DNA of 64,000 nt from Deltaproteobacteria bacterium HGW-Deltaproteobacteria-6 (GTDB taxonomy: Bacteria; Desulfobacterota; Syntrophia; Syntrophales; Smithellaceae), in the NCBI GenBank assembly GCA_002840435.1, contig PHAT01000002.1:390696-454695 (forward strand), given 5' to 3'. Within the stretch, counting starts at the first letter, position 1. Each line of letters begins with the position of its first letter. The notes below the pieces were generated by a model. It worked only from the letters and a program-made list of their open reading frames with translations. It was not told the DNA's origin and did no database searches. This document shows, one piece after another, positions 38,788 to 60,102 of this stretch. Both the position numbers and the translations under genes were made by a program.

Positions 38788-38816
38788 TTGACAAATATGA
38801 GGGAGACTGGTAAGCA
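38788..38816 (+). promoter_or_regulatory. Possible promoter for the thiamin unit
   Basis: A perfect TTGACA (38788-38793) and, 17 bases on, a weak TAAGCA (38811-38816), just ahead of the TPP riboswitch. Confidence 0.4.
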
Positions 38817-38824
38817 AAAAACAT

Positions 38825-38900
38825 TCGGGGTGTCAGGGCATCGGCCTTGTCTGAGATCATACCCGTTGAACCTGATCTGGGTAATGCCGGCGTAGGGAGA
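38825..38900 (+). ncRNA. TPP riboswitch (THI element)
   Basis: The conserved blocks are present in order: CGGGGTGTC, CTGAGATCATACCCGTTGAA, CCTGATCTGGGTAATGCCGG and CGTAGGGA. It binds thiamin pyrophosphate and here should control thiM-thiE. The terminator at 38917 gives the off state. Confidence 0.95.
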
Positions 38901-38916
38901 ATAGAGATTTCATTTT

Positions 38917-55637: not shown

Positions 55638-56546
55638 CTATCGGTCTCCCTTGGATTTCATGCTCATCCACGTCGTGGCAACTATTGTTACCAAATTGGA
55701 GATGGTTTCCAAAAGGCGTTGCTGTTCAGGGAAAAGATCTTTAGAATTATATAAGATTCCGATAACTCCAACAGTCCCCTCAAGATATTTCATGGGGATA
55801 AAATAGAATTTATTATCTGAGTAGGTATGTGTTCCTGCACCGGAAACCTCCCCATTGGCGAATGTCCAGTTCGCAGCAGCATTATCTTGTTCGGTAAGTT
55901 CGAGATCTACACTGCTTTTGGCACAAACCTTCAGAGTGCCGTCATCTTCCCGAAAAAAAACAAGAGACGGGACATCCAAAATCATTTTTGCGTATCTTAA
56001 AGTAAGCTGTCCCAATTGGTTGAATACAGCTGTTCGCAGAGAAAACGTGATGTTTTGGACTGTATACGTTTGTTCGATAGGGATAAGTGCCAGTAAATCT
56101 CTGCTCATGTCTTCGATCAGGTATACGCGATTCAGTCTGTCTTTCAGGAATATATTCTGACGGGTAACAATATTTATGAGATATGAAATAAGAATAGCGC
56201 AGGTGAAATAGACGATGACATTATAGACATCCTGTGGATTTGAAATATGAAGAGTATAGTATGGTTTGACAAAAACAAAGTCGAATATAAGGAAACCGGC
56301 AGTAAAAGATAATACCGAGGCCCAGGTTCCAAAATAAATTGCTCCTGCAATCGCGGGGACAAGATAAACAAAAATCAGAGAAGACGGCTGAATGAATTGT
56401 TCCAGGAATATATTCAGAATGGTAGTGAGAGTCAACATTACCAGAACGACTAGAAATCGCCTTGTTTTTTTAATTGTTTCTTTGTTAAAGCCTTTACCTC
56501 TGCTGAAAAAAGGCTCTAAATTAAAACCTTCATCTATTTTGTTCAT
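55638..56546 (-). CDS. KdpD-like DUF4118 membrane protein with GAF domain, no kinase
   Basis: 302 residues from the second ATG (56546), nine bases behind AGGAGG; an ATG six bases earlier is too close. Four membrane segments at ~30-140 follow the DUF4118 pattern of KdpD (SSLIFVYLVPAIAGAIYFG, FLIFDFVFVKPYYTL). A GAF-like domain spans ~165-295. The histidine kinase and the N-terminal Kdp/Usp domains of KdpD are absent. It lies 47 bases after a KimA-like potassium transporter, so a role in potassium or turgor sensing is likely but not shown. Confidence 0.8.
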   Translation of the reverse strand: MNKIDEGFNLEPFFSRGKGFNKETIKKTRRFLVVLVMLTLTTILNIFLEQFIQPSSLIFVYLVPAIAGAIYFGTWASVLSFTAGFLIFDFVFVKPYYTLHISNPQDVYNVIVYFTCAILISYLINIVTRQNIFLKDRLNRVYLIEDMSRDLLALIPIEQTYTVQNITFSLRTAVFNQLGQLTLRYAKMILDVPSLVFFREDDGTLKVCAKSSVDLELTEQDNAAANWTFANGEVSGAGTHTYSDNKFYFIPMKYLEGTVGVIGILYNSKDLFPEQQRLLETISNLVTIVATTWMSMKSKGDR

Positions 56547-56593
56547 GAGCATTTACCTCCTTTCAATCAACTGTCTTATTTATTTTATAAAGA

Positions 56594-58570
56594 TTAAACC
56601 CTGATCGGCATAATGACCGATTCAATTCCATCCCATTGTAAGCGTCTTTGAATAGCGTAAGCTGTCTCATTATGCAGTGCCCTTTGATAAAAATGTTCCT
56701 GATGGAAAATTAATTTTCCTGTGAAAACCATGGATTTTGGAAATTCTTTCGCTAACGACTGGCACACCTGAGTGGCTGTTTCGACCACATCCGTTCCGGC
56801 ATCCATCCTGTATTCTGCCGGCATGCCGAAGGAGCGGACAAGTTCTACATATTTTTTTAAGCCGTTTTCAACCGCAATTCTGAGTTGTTCCATTTCTGCA
56901 GATCCTTTGAATGCGGCCTGATCTACTTCTGCGATCGAAACAAAAATAAAGTTTTTATAGAAATGCGGAAATTTACGGTTAATTGAAAAAAATGTATGCA
57001 GGCCGAATCCGTTGAACCCGCTCACAAGAATGATTGCCGTGGGTTCTTTTGGATTCAGTGGTTCGTTGTTGTATTTTTTGCCGGGATGGATTTTCTGCAA
57101 AATATTTTCCAGCTTTCGCGCTTCGCCACGAACGTTAAGATAATGCTTATTAATCAAATAGCATGAAGTGATTAAAATAGATGTTATAACTAATGTTATC
57201 CAACCGCCTTCACCAAATTTCTCGTAGAGAATGACACAGAGTATTATCATACAAAGAATAAACCCGATTACATGAATAATTATGTGTCTCTTCCAATTTC
57301 TATCTTTTTCTCTGTCGCGAAGGAAAAAACGTATCATCCCAAACTCGGATAAGGAAAATGTCAAGAACACGTTAATGGAATACATGACTATAAGAGCAGA
57401 TATAGAACCGTTTGTATAGAAGAGCAGAATGACGGATGCGATGCCCATTAATACAATGCCGTTTTGCATGGTGAGCCGTTCGGAAAGCATGGCGAAGCGA
57501 TGAGGAAGCCAGAAATCGGTCGCCATGTTGGCCATAACTCTCGGCCCGTCAACAAATCCGGCTTGGGCGGCAACCAGGAGCAAGGCGCCTTCGGAGAAAA
57601 TTGTTACAAGAACTATCCATGATGATAAAGGCCAGTTGCGGAATACTTCGTCCGCCAGAATTGCATTTAAAGTTCTACCTTCAACTGGTTTTACTTGAAG
57701 AAGAGCATAACAAATCAGCAAGCCGGTTGCGGTAAAAGCAAGCGATACCGCCATGTAAAGCATAGTTCGCCTGCCCGTTTGCACACGCGGTTCCCTCATG
57801 ATCTGTATGCCATTGGAGACGGCTTCTATTCCGGTATACGTTCCGCCACCCAATGAGAAAGCCCGCAAAAAAATAGCCAGTATGCCGATAAAACCGATTG
57901 TTCCGATGTCCTGTTTGAAACTGCTGTTAAATTGACTCAATACCAACCCAAATTGATCAGCGTGATGTGCTATGCCAAAGACAATGAGAAGAATATGAGT
58001 TAAGATAAAAACAATAAAAATAGGAGCGAGGGCTATAACGGACTCCTTCACACCCCGCAGATTCATAATGACAAGCATCAGAATGAGAAATACAACAAAG
58101 ATGAGTTTGTATTTTTGATAAGCTATCGGCAAAAAACTGAAGATGGCATCGCCGCAGGCAACTAGAGAAACGGTAATTGTCAGCATGTAGTCTATGATCA
58201 AAGCACTGCCTGATACTACGCCGGCGCTTTTGCTGATAGTTTTTGTGGATACTATGTATCCTCCTCCACCTTGTGGGAAATGTTCGATGATGCGCGAATA
58301 CGCATAAGCAATGATAAAAACAGTAAATGCCATGGCTATACCAAGGAGAAGCGCTATGTAAGTATGACTACCCAGCGTCCTAAATGCTTCTTCCGGTCCG
58401 TATGCTGAAGATGATAAACCATCGGCGCCTAAGCCAATCCACGCAAGTATGGGAATGAGGGATAATTTGTGAAAAAGAGATGGTTCATTTACATTACGCG
58501 GTTCTCCAACAAGTTTATGCCACAACCTGTGCTTCAAGCTTTTTTCATGCACTGAATCGAATGTATCCAC
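56594..58570 (-). CDS. KimA-like potassium transporter (APC superfamily)
   Basis: 658 residues from a GTG at 58570 with GAGGAGG upstream. About twelve membrane segments, then a soluble C-terminal domain (~500-658). Motifs match Bacillus KimA: GADGLSSSAYGPEE, PQGGGGYIVSTKT and IDYMLTITVSLVACGDAIF, and the C-terminal layout ends similarly. KimA takes up potassium with protons and is a c-di-AMP target. The riboswitch upstream and the KdpD-like gene downstream both support potassium. The usual automatic label would be amino acid permease, which I think less likely. Confidence 0.8.
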   Translation of the reverse strand: MDTFDSVHEKSLKHRLWHKLVGEPRNVNEPSLFHKLSLIPILAWIGLGADGLSSSAYGPEEAFRTLGSHTYIALLLGIAMAFTVFIIAYAYSRIIEHFPQGGGGYIVSTKTISKSAGVVSGSALIIDYMLTITVSLVACGDAIFSFLPIAYQKYKLIFVVFLILMLVIMNLRGVKESVIALAPIFIVFILTHILLIVFGIAHHADQFGLVLSQFNSSFKQDIGTIGFIGILAIFLRAFSLGGGTYTGIEAVSNGIQIMREPRVQTGRRTMLYMAVSLAFTATGLLICYALLQVKPVEGRTLNAILADEVFRNWPLSSWIVLVTIFSEGALLLVAAQAGFVDGPRVMANMATDFWLPHRFAMLSERLTMQNGIVLMGIASVILLFYTNGSISALIVMYSINVFLTFSLSEFGMIRFFLRDREKDRNWKRHIIIHVIGFILCMIILCVILYEKFGEGGWITLVITSILITSCYLINKHYLNVRGEARKLENILQKIHPGKKYNNEPLNPKEPTAIILVSGFNGFGLHTFFSINRKFPHFYKNFIFVSIAEVDQAAFKGSAEMEQLRIAVENGLKKYVELVRSFGMPAEYRMDAGTDVVETATQVCQSLAKEFPKSMVFTGKLIFHQEHFYQRALHNETAYAIQRRLQWDGIESVIMPIRV

Positions 58571-58745
58571 GATTAATGGACCTCCTCGATTATATAAATA
58601 AAGGATATAGGTCGGTATTCGTAGTCGGTTTTTTTGTGAGAATTATAGGGCTTGATAAATGTAAATTGGGAGCGGGCAATGGGTGAATTGAATTCTTCAC
58701 CAGTTGCAAACGCAGAGAATCGTCGCAATAGCAATACATCCGTTG

Positions 58746-58768
58746 AAAGAAGAATAAACATCTTCTTT
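58746..58768 (-). other. Short A/U-rich hairpin after the riboswitch
   Basis: AAAGAAGA and TCTTCTTT form an eight-base stem at the 3' edge of the riboswitch. A second stem, GGTGAA...TTCACC, lies at 58682-58701. Neither has a T tract, so the way the riboswitch acts is unclear. Confidence 0.4.
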
Positions 58769-58892
58769 GTCCCTTCCATATGCCGACGAGGTTAGCTGAC
58801 GGGCTCGGACTTGGAAGTATCCTATTCCTTGGAAATTCGCCCCAAAATTCTGGTTCCCCCGTATCTATCCTACTGGTAGATTTAGGCATCAA
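58768..58892 (-). ncRNA. c-di-AMP (ydaO-yuaA) riboswitch
   Basis: Read on the minus strand, conserved ydaO blocks appear in order: ATGCCTAAATC (P1, 58889 down), GGGGGAACC (58860-58852), TTTTGGGGCGAATTT (58847-58833), GAGCCCGTCAGCTAACCTCG (58806-58787), then GGCAT closing P1 (58784-58780) and GGAAGGGA. P1 pairs ATGCC with GGCAT. This element binds cyclic di-AMP and usually turns off potassium import or wall genes, which fits the gene downstream. Confidence 0.85.
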
Positions 58893-58904
58893 TACATGTG
58901 TTTA

Positions 58905-58932
58905 AGCTTAGTCTCTTTATAATAACTGTCAA
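58905..58932 (-). promoter_or_regulatory. Probable promoter of the riboswitch/KimA unit
   Basis: A perfect TTGACA (58932-58927) and a weak TAAGCT (58910-58905), 16 bases apart. The predicted start (~58898) is just before the riboswitch P1. Confidence 0.45.
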
Positions 58933-59206
58933 GGGGAATTTATGATACATTTTTGTCCGTTTTTACGATAATATCTTTGTCAAGCTAAATGTCGATGTTT
59001 GTTCTTATATTGAATTGTGTTTATGCAAATTGAAATTTTAGCATTTAAGCCGAGGAAAAAAAATAAGGGCTTCAGGAGCGACATCAACCGGATGAATGGC
59101 TATTAAAGAATAGGAGGCGGCTGTACAGTAGAAAATTTCCTTTTTGATTTTTGAAGGAGTTGGTGTATTTAAATTAACCAGCAGGGCGACAGCCAAAAAG
59201 GAGAAC
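58933..59206. other. Non-coding stretch before cobB
   Basis: About 270 A/T-rich bases. An in-frame extension of cobB reaches back to 59144 but has no ribosome site. I see no other gene or repeat. Confidence 0.4.
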
Positions 59207-59980
59207 ATGGACCTGATGGAGAAAAAAATAATTCAAGTTGCCGATATGATCGCGAAGGCAAAGCGTGTCGTTGTTTTTACCGGCGCGGGCATCAGTACGG
59301 AATCCGGCATTCCGGATTTCCGCGGTCCCGGCGGACTCTGGACAAAATATGATCCCGATGACTTCACGATTGATAAATTTCTGGGGTCCCACGCGACGCG
59401 AAAAAAAATGTGGCAGCGTCTGCGTGAAGGCGGCTTGATGGAAGACGCCAATCCCAATGCGGCGCATTACGCCATTGTTGAACTGGAAAAGACGGGCAAG
59501 CTGAGCGCGCTGGTTACGCAGAATGTCGACAATCTGCATCAAAAGGCGGGAAGCTCCCCCGCGCTCATCCGCGAACTTCACGGCAACATGCAGAGGCTGG
59601 TTTGCCTGAACTGCGGTGAGCTTTATCCCATCACCCTTGTCAAGGAGCGGTATGCCGATTCCGATAATGTTCCGACCTGCGAATACTGCCGGGGTATTCT
59701 CAAACCCGACGTTATTTTCTTTGGAGAGGCTCTGCCGCAGCGGACGCTGGCGCAGGCCATGCAGGAAGCCTCGGAATGCGATGTGATGCTGGTGATCGGT
59801 TCCTCGCTGGTTGTTTATCCGGCGGCTTACATTCCGGTTCAGGCCAAACAGGCGGGCGCAAAACTGGTGATCATCAACAAAGGCCCGACTGAACAGGATC
59901 ATCATGCCGATGTGCGCATCGACGCGGCAGCCGGTGCGACGATGACGAAGATATTAAATAGGCTGAAGACCGAAGGCTGA
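59207..59980 (+). CDS. cobB: Sir2-family NAD-dependent protein deacylase
   Basis: 257 residues from the ATG at 59207 behind AAGGAG. Sirtuin motifs: TGAGISTESGIPDFRGPGG near residue 25, TQNVDNLHQKAGS near 105, the catalytic His in ELHGNM, and a four-cysteine zinc site (CLNCG...CEYCRG). It removes acyl groups from lysine using NAD. In syntrophs with high acyl-CoA pools this may counter non-enzymatic acylation. Acyl preference cannot be read with certainty. Downstream are an NRDE gene, a Nudix gene and an HDAC-like gene. Confidence 0.93.
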   Translation: MDLMEKKIIQVADMIAKAKRVVVFTGAGISTESGIPDFRGPGGLWTKYDPDDFTIDKFLGSHATRKKMWQRLREGGLMEDANPNAAHYAIVELEKTGKLSALVTQNVDNLHQKAGSSPALIRELHGNMQRLVCLNCGELYPITLVKERYADSDNVPTCEYCRGILKPDVIFFGEALPQRTLAQAMQEASECDVMLVIGSSLVVYPAAYIPVQAKQAGAKLVIINKGPTEQDHHADVRIDAAAGATMTKILNRLKTEG

Positions 59981-60102
59981 AGGCTGGAGGTCAATTTGAA
60001 AGGTGCGAAACGCACCATCATGCCTTAGAAGGGCGGCATCCAGAAAAGAATAAAAAGGCCGAAGGCTCACAAAATGGATCTTCAGCCTTCAGTCTTCAGC
60101 CT
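59959..60102. repeat. Inverted repeat between cobB and the NRDE gene
   Basis: AGGCTGAAGACC... (59959-59981) is, with one mismatch, the reverse complement of 60080-60102, over 23 bases. The left arm covers the last codons of cobB. The units are GGCTGAAG/CTTCAGCC tandem-like motifs. Confidence 0.7.

Follow-up and report, generated by a model that had tools for sequence, protein, structure and literature searches.

A c-di-AMP riboswitch that may gate a leader ORF, and through it kimA- and kdp-type K+ importers, in Smithellaceae

The window, by which we mean the whole 64,000-nt stretch of contig PHAT01000002.1 analysed here, carries on its minus strand a c-di-AMP aptamer, an open reading frame that begins at the aptamer edge and a gene for a KimA-type K+ importer. 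The first-pass annotation, made from the letters of the window, had described the genome as deltaproteobacterium-like, which agrees with its placement in Smithellaceae (Syntrophales, Thermodesulfobacteriota); the Thermodesulfobacteriota members considered here were once classed under Deltaproteobacteria. In the direction of transcription, the features are:

58946..58957, minus strand: GACAAAAATGTA, a palindromic box with the consensus TACA-AAAA-TGTA, whose start precedes that of the -35 element by 25 nt
58905..58932, minus strand: inferred promoter, with TTGACA (58932-58927), a 16-nt spacer and TAAGCT (58910-58905)
58766..58898, minus strand: c-di-AMP (ydaO, RF00379) aptamer, from cmscan with Rfam 15
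58771..58777, minus strand: GGAAGGG, a Shine-Dalgarno-like sequence for the leader ORF, located 4 nt beyond the P1 GGC, from sequence
58746..58768, minus strand: hairpin AAAGAAGA-UGUUUAU-UCUUCUUU holding the leader-ORF AUG, from a helix search and two-sided changes
58573..58761, minus strand: leader ORF (uORF) of 62 codons, with an ATG start and a TAA 2 nt before the kimA GTG, from sequence and from length and stop-position statistics
58581..58587, minus strand: Shine-Dalgarno sequence of kimA, GAGGAGG, within the end of the leader ORF, from sequence
56594..58570, minus strand: kimA-type K+ importer gene, 658 aa, GTG start, from a PDB KimA match and AlphaFold/Foldseek
55638..56552, minus strand: gene with DUF4118 (the KdpD membrane part, PF13493) and a weak GAF domain, second behind kimA

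Searching the whole window with cmscan placed RF00379 at 58898..58766 of the minus strand with 92.1 bits (gathering score 38, E = 2.5 × 10−20), and the match covers the model end to end (1-134 of 134), enclosing the ydaO aptamer that had been annotated at 58768-58892 on the same strand. The annotation had named a covariance search with the ydaO model and a search for a cyclase as its checks, and an insignificant score or a genome lacking a diadenylate cyclase as grounds for giving it up; with a score above the cut-off and two DAC genes in the genome, neither is the case. Across the whole genome (G000; 4.09 Mb, 53 contigs), RF00379 occurs at the window place and at one more, which lies before kup (G000:C2:95594-95724, 96.7 bits). 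The first cyclase gene (L007:6380-7837) encodes 485 aa with CdaA_N and DAC domains, and its C-terminal part reaches 22.0 bits for YbbR, slightly under the cut-off of 22.3; from this domain order it is probably a CdaA-YbbR fusion, i.e., CdaA joined to its regulator CdaR. Open frames of ~490-510 aa for the CdaA-type cyclase are present in many relatives. The second gene (L006:4744-5616; 290 aa) combines DacZ_P with DAC, a cyclase type known from archaea, and a further DAC match of roughly similar length is frequent within the family, in which 50 of 51 genomes contain DAC. The genome also has three DHH places, of which two were scanned and one of those carries DHHA1; these represent candidate phosphodiesterases.

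The importer gene behind the switch, annotated earlier as KimA-like, bears that name out. At a threshold of E 0.001, B. subtilis KimA (6s3k/8b70/8b71) was the sole PDB match (E = 3.6 × 10−59), and a profile built from eight relatives reached the same protein at 2.8 × 10−75. The AlphaFold model (mean pLDDT 70.8, pTM 0.60) returned three KimA entries as the top three Foldseek matches, over 624-636 columns at 25-26% identity, so the fold is shared across almost the whole length. In the model, residues 511-657 form a PPAT-like cytosolic domain of five strands and four helices, the composition given for the KimA cytosolic domain in the excerpted KimA paper (PMC10284832). The same excerpts name D36, Y43, T230 and Y377 as K+ ligand residues, all four of which are kept (D50, Y57, T246 and Y397). 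We consider the product a full-length KimA-type importer and predict from the model and alignments that it transports K+. Among the c-di-AMP-site residues, H579 and N580 are retained as H633 and N634, whereas R337 aligns with H357 (R358 adjoins), Q581 is replaced by E635 and S582 by T636. With two of five residues kept and three replaced, inhibition of this KimA by c-di-AMP at the protein level is possible.

The product of the DUF4118 gene matches PF13493 at E = 5.1 × 10−19 and GAF_3 at 26.8 bits (cut-off 27), covers the NCBIfam KdpD model just at positions 398-639 of 895, and gave no kinase match in domain searches. A DUF4118 gene stands behind kimA in two further genomes (G031 and G150) as well, and the kdp operon of G014 contains a protein with KdpD, Usp, DUF4118 and GAF parts that likewise has no kinase match. 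Such kinase-less KdpD pieces (DUF4118 with or without GAF, KdpD and Usp; 55638-56552, L210:5144-7213, L207:2914-3867 and L074:2837-3643) stand behind riboswitch-controlled kimA in three genomes and behind kdp in G014, and from their domains it is possible that they are kinase-free K+ sensors.

We searched 155 genomes of the order for RF00379 with stricter filters, by which some weak matches were lost, and found it in 34 genomes at 38 places, one of which (L073) scores under the cut-off. K+ uptake operons follow 36 of the 38 places (Kup 21, Kdp 11, KimA 3, TrkH 1, the last being L013 of G036:C1); the remaining two precede an APC permease (L035) and an unclear gene with an interrupted leader (L072). 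All 21 Kup genes behind RF00379 match the window genome's own Kup at 62-100% identity. At the L021 kdp locus, a response regulator and another gene lie ahead of KdpA. The genomic context supports the predicted c-di-AMP control of K+ uptake in Smithellaceae/Syntrophales, as had been claimed for the lineage from the window. At L072 (G096:C55:171129-171262), the leader ORF appears by eye to be broken by an insertion-like stretch; the next gene is an ORF of 702 aa whose start is lipoprotein-like.

KimA homologues occur in 30 of 149 order genomes and in 16 of 51 family genomes, and the riboswitch precedes kimA only in G000, G031 and G150. A riboswitch at every kimA was refuted, with RF00379 found by cmscan at none of 20 kimA loci (L039-L058); the other ten of the 30 are L008 and L038, which are riboswitch-linked, and L059-L066, on whose contigs the genome search with stricter filters gave no RF00379. 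In G096 and G123, kimA lies behind a proB-like gene (named by eye). KdpA was found in 17 of the 51 family genomes and no kdpA match in G000, G031 or G150; in 11 of the 17, a riboswitch precedes kdp, one of these aptamers (G153) scoring under the cut-off. In the portions of the 2019 study available to us, riboswitch-led kdp is confined to Bacillales and mutually exclusive with KdpDE (PMC6488665), and relative to that survey Smithellaceae extend its range; as regards the exclusivity, the G014 kdp operon showed the kinase-less KdpD-type protein and no complete KdpDE. Using a DNA pattern match rather than cmscan (at least 118 stretches, 80 loci analysed), we also noticed, among the matches listed, ydaO-like leaders before KimA-like genes in Verrucomicrobia-type/Kiritimatiellae MAGs (L083, L087, L101, L136 and L150), whose transporters are 43-47% identical to that of the window.

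The 38 leaders follow two designs. Those of kup are short, mostly ~55 nt, and by eye the 3' arm of their hairpin can pair with the Kup Shine-Dalgarno; in the window genome's kup leader (L005:4595-4780; G000:C2:95594-95779) this arm reads UUCUCC and could pair with the kup Shine-Dalgarno. The long design comprises 15 leaders, namely those of kimA and kdp and the interrupted locus L072. In the window the interval from aptamer to kimA is 195 nt and holds an ORF that the first-pass annotation had overlooked. All 15 long leaders have a purine-rich, Shine-Dalgarno-like stretch right behind P1, followed by an AUG that opens an ORF. Taking the AUG located 8-26 nt behind P1, the ORF runs for at least 40 codons in 13 of the 15 leaders, against 2.1 expected from dinucleotide shuffles (nominal P = 3 × 10−10); the exceptions are L036 (25 codons) and the interrupted L072 (4 codons). 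Moreover, 10 of 12 leaders have their ORF stop at -45..+30 nt relative to the transporter start (1.41 expected, nominal P = 1 × 10−10), compared with 3 of 12 and 0 of 12 in the control frames +1 and +2; L021, L030 and L072 were excluded here as their transporter start was not assigned. Both P values are nominal because the leaders are kin within one family and the -45..+30 limits were chosen post hoc.

The stop position in the window leader is -2 nt, and among the ten leaders with the stop at the start, the distance from AUG to transporter start varies from 149 to 261 nt. The two misses are L029 (kimA, G031) at -162, where the kimA frame stays open beyond the stop, and L036 at -65. At L027 the ORF shares an ATGA with the start of kdpA, and at L034 and L032 (in the latter for the second of two AUGs) it touches the kdpA Shine-Dalgarno. 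Of 11 leader pairs scoring at least 45, ten have more amino-acid than silent changes and one has equal numbers, and strong selection on the leader peptide was not seen; judged from these changes, the frame is preserved and the peptide hardly. For three of the 13 peptides that were tried, Pfam gave nothing better than E 0.23. We also rejected the idea that the leader ORF is KdpF, since the Kyte-Doolittle scale gives a hydrophobic 19-residue stretch (above 1.6) in just 1 of 13 peptides (L070), and the leader peptides are thus not KdpF-like.

Comparable short frames were observed elsewhere. The trkH leader L013, of the kup design, holds an ORF of 46 codons that shares an ATGA with the start of trkH, a possible second ORF relay. 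Among the matches listed, four Smithellaceae loci (L112, L116, L126 and L141) have an ORF that opens with an AUG at most 40 nt from the aptamer and closes at -45..+30 nt relative to a long ORF, the position for L116 being taken relative to an upstream TTG rather than the aligned kimA ATG. Also among the matches listed, loci from other phyla (L085, L099 in two places, L103, L110 and L140) show 11-22-codon ORFs that end near the start of a longer ORF and whose AUG lies 24-34 nt behind the end of the ydaO-like aptamer.

A helix surrounds the leader-ORF AUG in 13 of the 15 long leaders, although it is weak in L021 and L034, where 38 and 68 of 300 shuffles, respectively, equalled it; the hairpin is absent in L036, the leader with the 25-codon ORF. 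Two-sided changes were found at four of the eight hairpin pairs (pairs 5-8) at two loci, L032 and/or L037. Across the 13 leaders, 94 of 104 hairpin cells pair, compared with 60-66 when the alignment is slid, a count that leans toward the helix as the best one was chosen per leader and L021 was shifted by hand. The gap between P1 and the hairpin is 10-15 nt in the 13 leaders. In minimum-energy folds of a 62-nt segment, the AUG hairpin forms in 8 of 13 leaders, while L071, L021, L034, L073 and L037 fold otherwise, L071 and L021 doing so over the Shine-Dalgarno. When the aptamer core was forced, the unpaired fraction of the Shine-Dalgarno rose in L070 (0.23 to 0.49) and L033 (0.19 to 0.74), fell in L021 (0.28 to 0.05) and L032 (0.24 to 0.10), and barely shifted in L002, L029 and L030; accessibility thus changed in no consistent direction between the free and the forced state in the 7 leaders with anchors, of 13. 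Anti-Shine-Dalgarno pairing by an aptamer CCUC was dropped as a candidate, the GGAAGGG of the window being without GAGG.

Upstream of the aptamer, most long leaders have further elements in common. The TACA-AAAA-TGTA box was found with at most two mismatches in 10 of the 15 kimA/kdp-type leaders (0.47 expected) and in 1 of 20 kup leaders (0.52 expected), the latter count taking 20 of the 21 places with L069 omitted. It lies 25-28 nt before TTGACA in nine of the ten box-bearing long leaders, and looks like a putative site of a regulator. TTGACA occurs upstream of the aptamer in 11 of the 15 leaders and TAGC(T/G)A 17 nt on in 7 of the 15; the TAAGCT that the window carries in the -10 place is weak. 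Judging from these motifs, most kimA and kdp leaders share one cassette of box, promoter, riboswitch and leader ORF. The G150 kimA leader (L070 1-350) carries TTGGCACAAGTATTGCT (TTGGCAC-N5-TTGCT) and an upstream hairpin instead of the TTGACA promoter; the motif resembles a sigma-54 promoter.

Taken together, these observations suggest, with a probability that we put at roughly 55%, that the c-di-AMP riboswitch gates translation of the leader ORF, and thereby of kimA or kdpA, by ribosome coupling. Leader-ORF initiation would be the regulated step, with the transporter following by coupling. With c-di-AMP bound, P1 would be closed and the Shine-Dalgarno would sit in the single-stranded gap before the AUG hairpin, which at 10-15 nt may be too narrow for a 30S subunit, leaving the leader ORF unread. 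A drop in c-di-AMP, as expected at K+ shortage, would open P1, so that ribosomes could bind, melt the hairpin and translate the leader ORF, and kimA or kdpA would then start through termination-reinitiation or unmasking of its start. Untranslated leader RNA might be shortened by Rho as well. The net outcome would be K+ uptake that is OFF at high c-di-AMP, a direction that we prefer because the excerpted literature describes the riboswitches on kimA and ktrAB in B. subtilis, and the one on kdp in B. thuringiensis, as OFF switches; given the lack of a consistent folding change in the seven leaders, it rests on physiology and those known switches. Support for the coupling comes from the anatomy of the leaders, the slot shared with Paenibacillus and the precedent of M. 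tuberculosis ppe2, both described below.

The absence of a consistent folding change also bears on the opposite polarity, in which c-di-AMP would be an ON signal: the 3' strand of the aptamer (CCC or CCUC) would pair with the Shine-Dalgarno in free RNA and ligand would release it. The gain in unpaired Shine-Dalgarno in L070 and L033 is what such a switch predicts; however, L021 and L032 shift the opposite way, three leaders barely move, and K+ import would rise at K+ surplus, contrary to the Bacillus OFF switches in the parts of the literature consulted, which leaves the ON direction doubtful. We regard as slimmer still the chance of a classical ydaO OFF switch with an intrinsic terminator, to which the ORF would be incidental. 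Although termination is the known mode of the class in the sections of PMC6488665 at hand, and a 10-pair hairpin interrupted by an internal loop is predicted at 58707-58676, no T-tract follows that hairpin, and a simple consensus scan found no intrinsic terminator between 58766 and 58570, in line with the earlier remark that no T-tract terminator is visible. The lone terminator-like site in 58300-59250 lies inside kimA (58438-58421, minus strand), one site against a shuffled mean of 1.0. Such a switch would, moreover, leave the length and stop statistics of the leader ORF without a role.

Those statistics are equally relevant to the notion that the leader ORF is a chance frame retained through kinship. 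All 15 leaders belong to one family and the shuffles treat them as independent, yet the stop falls at the transporter start despite length differences of more than 100 nt and with each of the three relative frames represented, and the control frames give far fewer such stops; we consider chance retention highly improbable. The alternative that we take most seriously, while still thinking it unlikely, accepts that the ORF is translated: it would be read in both states, c-di-AMP would act elsewhere (termination lacking a U-tract, or Rho access), and the ORF would be merely a shield against Rho. A Rho gene is present in the genome, and the window leader has 26.7% C and 11.6% G (C/G 2.29; C minus G = 18 in its best 60-nt stretch). 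The bias is, however, weak in the other 12 leaders measured (C/G 0.98-1.67), and an ORF that begins at the edge of the aptamer, close to a hairpin showing two-sided changes, and reaches to the transporter start exceeds what shielding needs. Rho was rejected as a general explanation, only the window leader of 13 being distinctly C-rich and G-poor.

The proposed coupling can be compared with known systems. Switches of the ydaO class in B. subtilis end in a terminator. The kdp switch of B. thuringiensis also has an intrinsic terminator at its end, and in the excerpts of PMC6488665 the ydaO/yuaA switches ahead of kimA and ktrAB (B. subtilis) and kdpFABC (B. thuringiensis) have the same aptamer class and the same K+ targets as those described here. 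In contrast to the Bacillus switches, the Smithellaceae leader has no terminator that our scan could find, and an ORF lies between aptamer and transporter. In Paenibacillus loci, among the matches listed, an aptamer GGC, GGAAGGAG and a start codon are spaced by ~20 nt as in the window; there the next gene occupies the slot with its TTG start, whereas in the window the leader ORF fills it. The Paenibacillus genes behind this shared aptamer end appear by eye to be NlpC/P60-like, among the matches listed.

The closest parallel in architecture is M. tuberculosis ppe2, for which the available text of PMC11260477 describes a B12 riboswitch that controls uPPE2, with PPE2 requiring uPPE2 translation and being made mainly by termination-reinitiation, Rho being considered too. 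Both systems combine a riboswitch with a leader ORF whose Shine-Dalgarno lies at the aptamer edge and whose stop touches the next start. They differ in ligand and aptamer, and according to the same text ppe2 overlaps as AUGA and lacks its own Shine-Dalgarno, whereas kimA has GAGGAGG; translation has been demonstrated for ppe2 and is predicted for the Smithellaceae leader.

By their profile matches, riboswitch and importer are members of known families. The first-pass annotation had implied that c-di-AMP control of K+ uptake in a Gram-negative lineage was new; the control is supported here but is less novel than implied, as c-di-AMP riboswitches ahead of ktr, trk, kdp and kup had already been predicted for Proteobacteria and other phyla according to the 2019 paper, in the passages available (PMC6488665), so the riboswitch and importer part is ordinary. 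A c-di-AMP riboswitch gating a leader ORF was not found in the open-licence PMC literature, an absence that carries little weight, and as far as open PMC papers reach the leader-ORF platform would be an undescribed variant for the RF00379 class.

In the literature consulted, as far as its excerpts go, c-di-AMP control of K+ uptake has been worked out in Gram-positives; a family of Gram-negative syntrophs appears to use the same aptamer with a different output, namely a ribosome hand-over via the leader ORF. The coupling reading would offer a concrete, testable answer to how a c-di-AMP riboswitch acts in the absence of a terminator, and among kdpA-bearing Smithellaceae genomes the 11 of 17 with a riboswitch would widen the range of such control of kdp beyond Bacillales, as that range appears in the parts of the survey available. 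More speculatively, and in our view rather improbably, the leader could be a two-input K+ sensor, in which the aptamer reads c-di-AMP, the leader ORF (its start codon held in a hairpin, its peptide free to vary) reads how well ribosomes initiate and proceed at low K+, and the importer is produced only when the two inputs concur; box, promoter, riboswitch and ORF would then form a portable K+-starvation module placed before kimA or kdp.

Other elements of the window were noted in passing. A Sir2-family gene is divergent from the kimA locus, and behind it lies an inverted repeat (59960-60102) with 23-nt arms, 96% complementary and 97 nt apart, which is REP-/MITE-like. A TPP riboswitch at 38816-38916 on the plus strand (69.5 bits) lies ahead of ORFs that we named by eye as ThiM- and ThiE-like.
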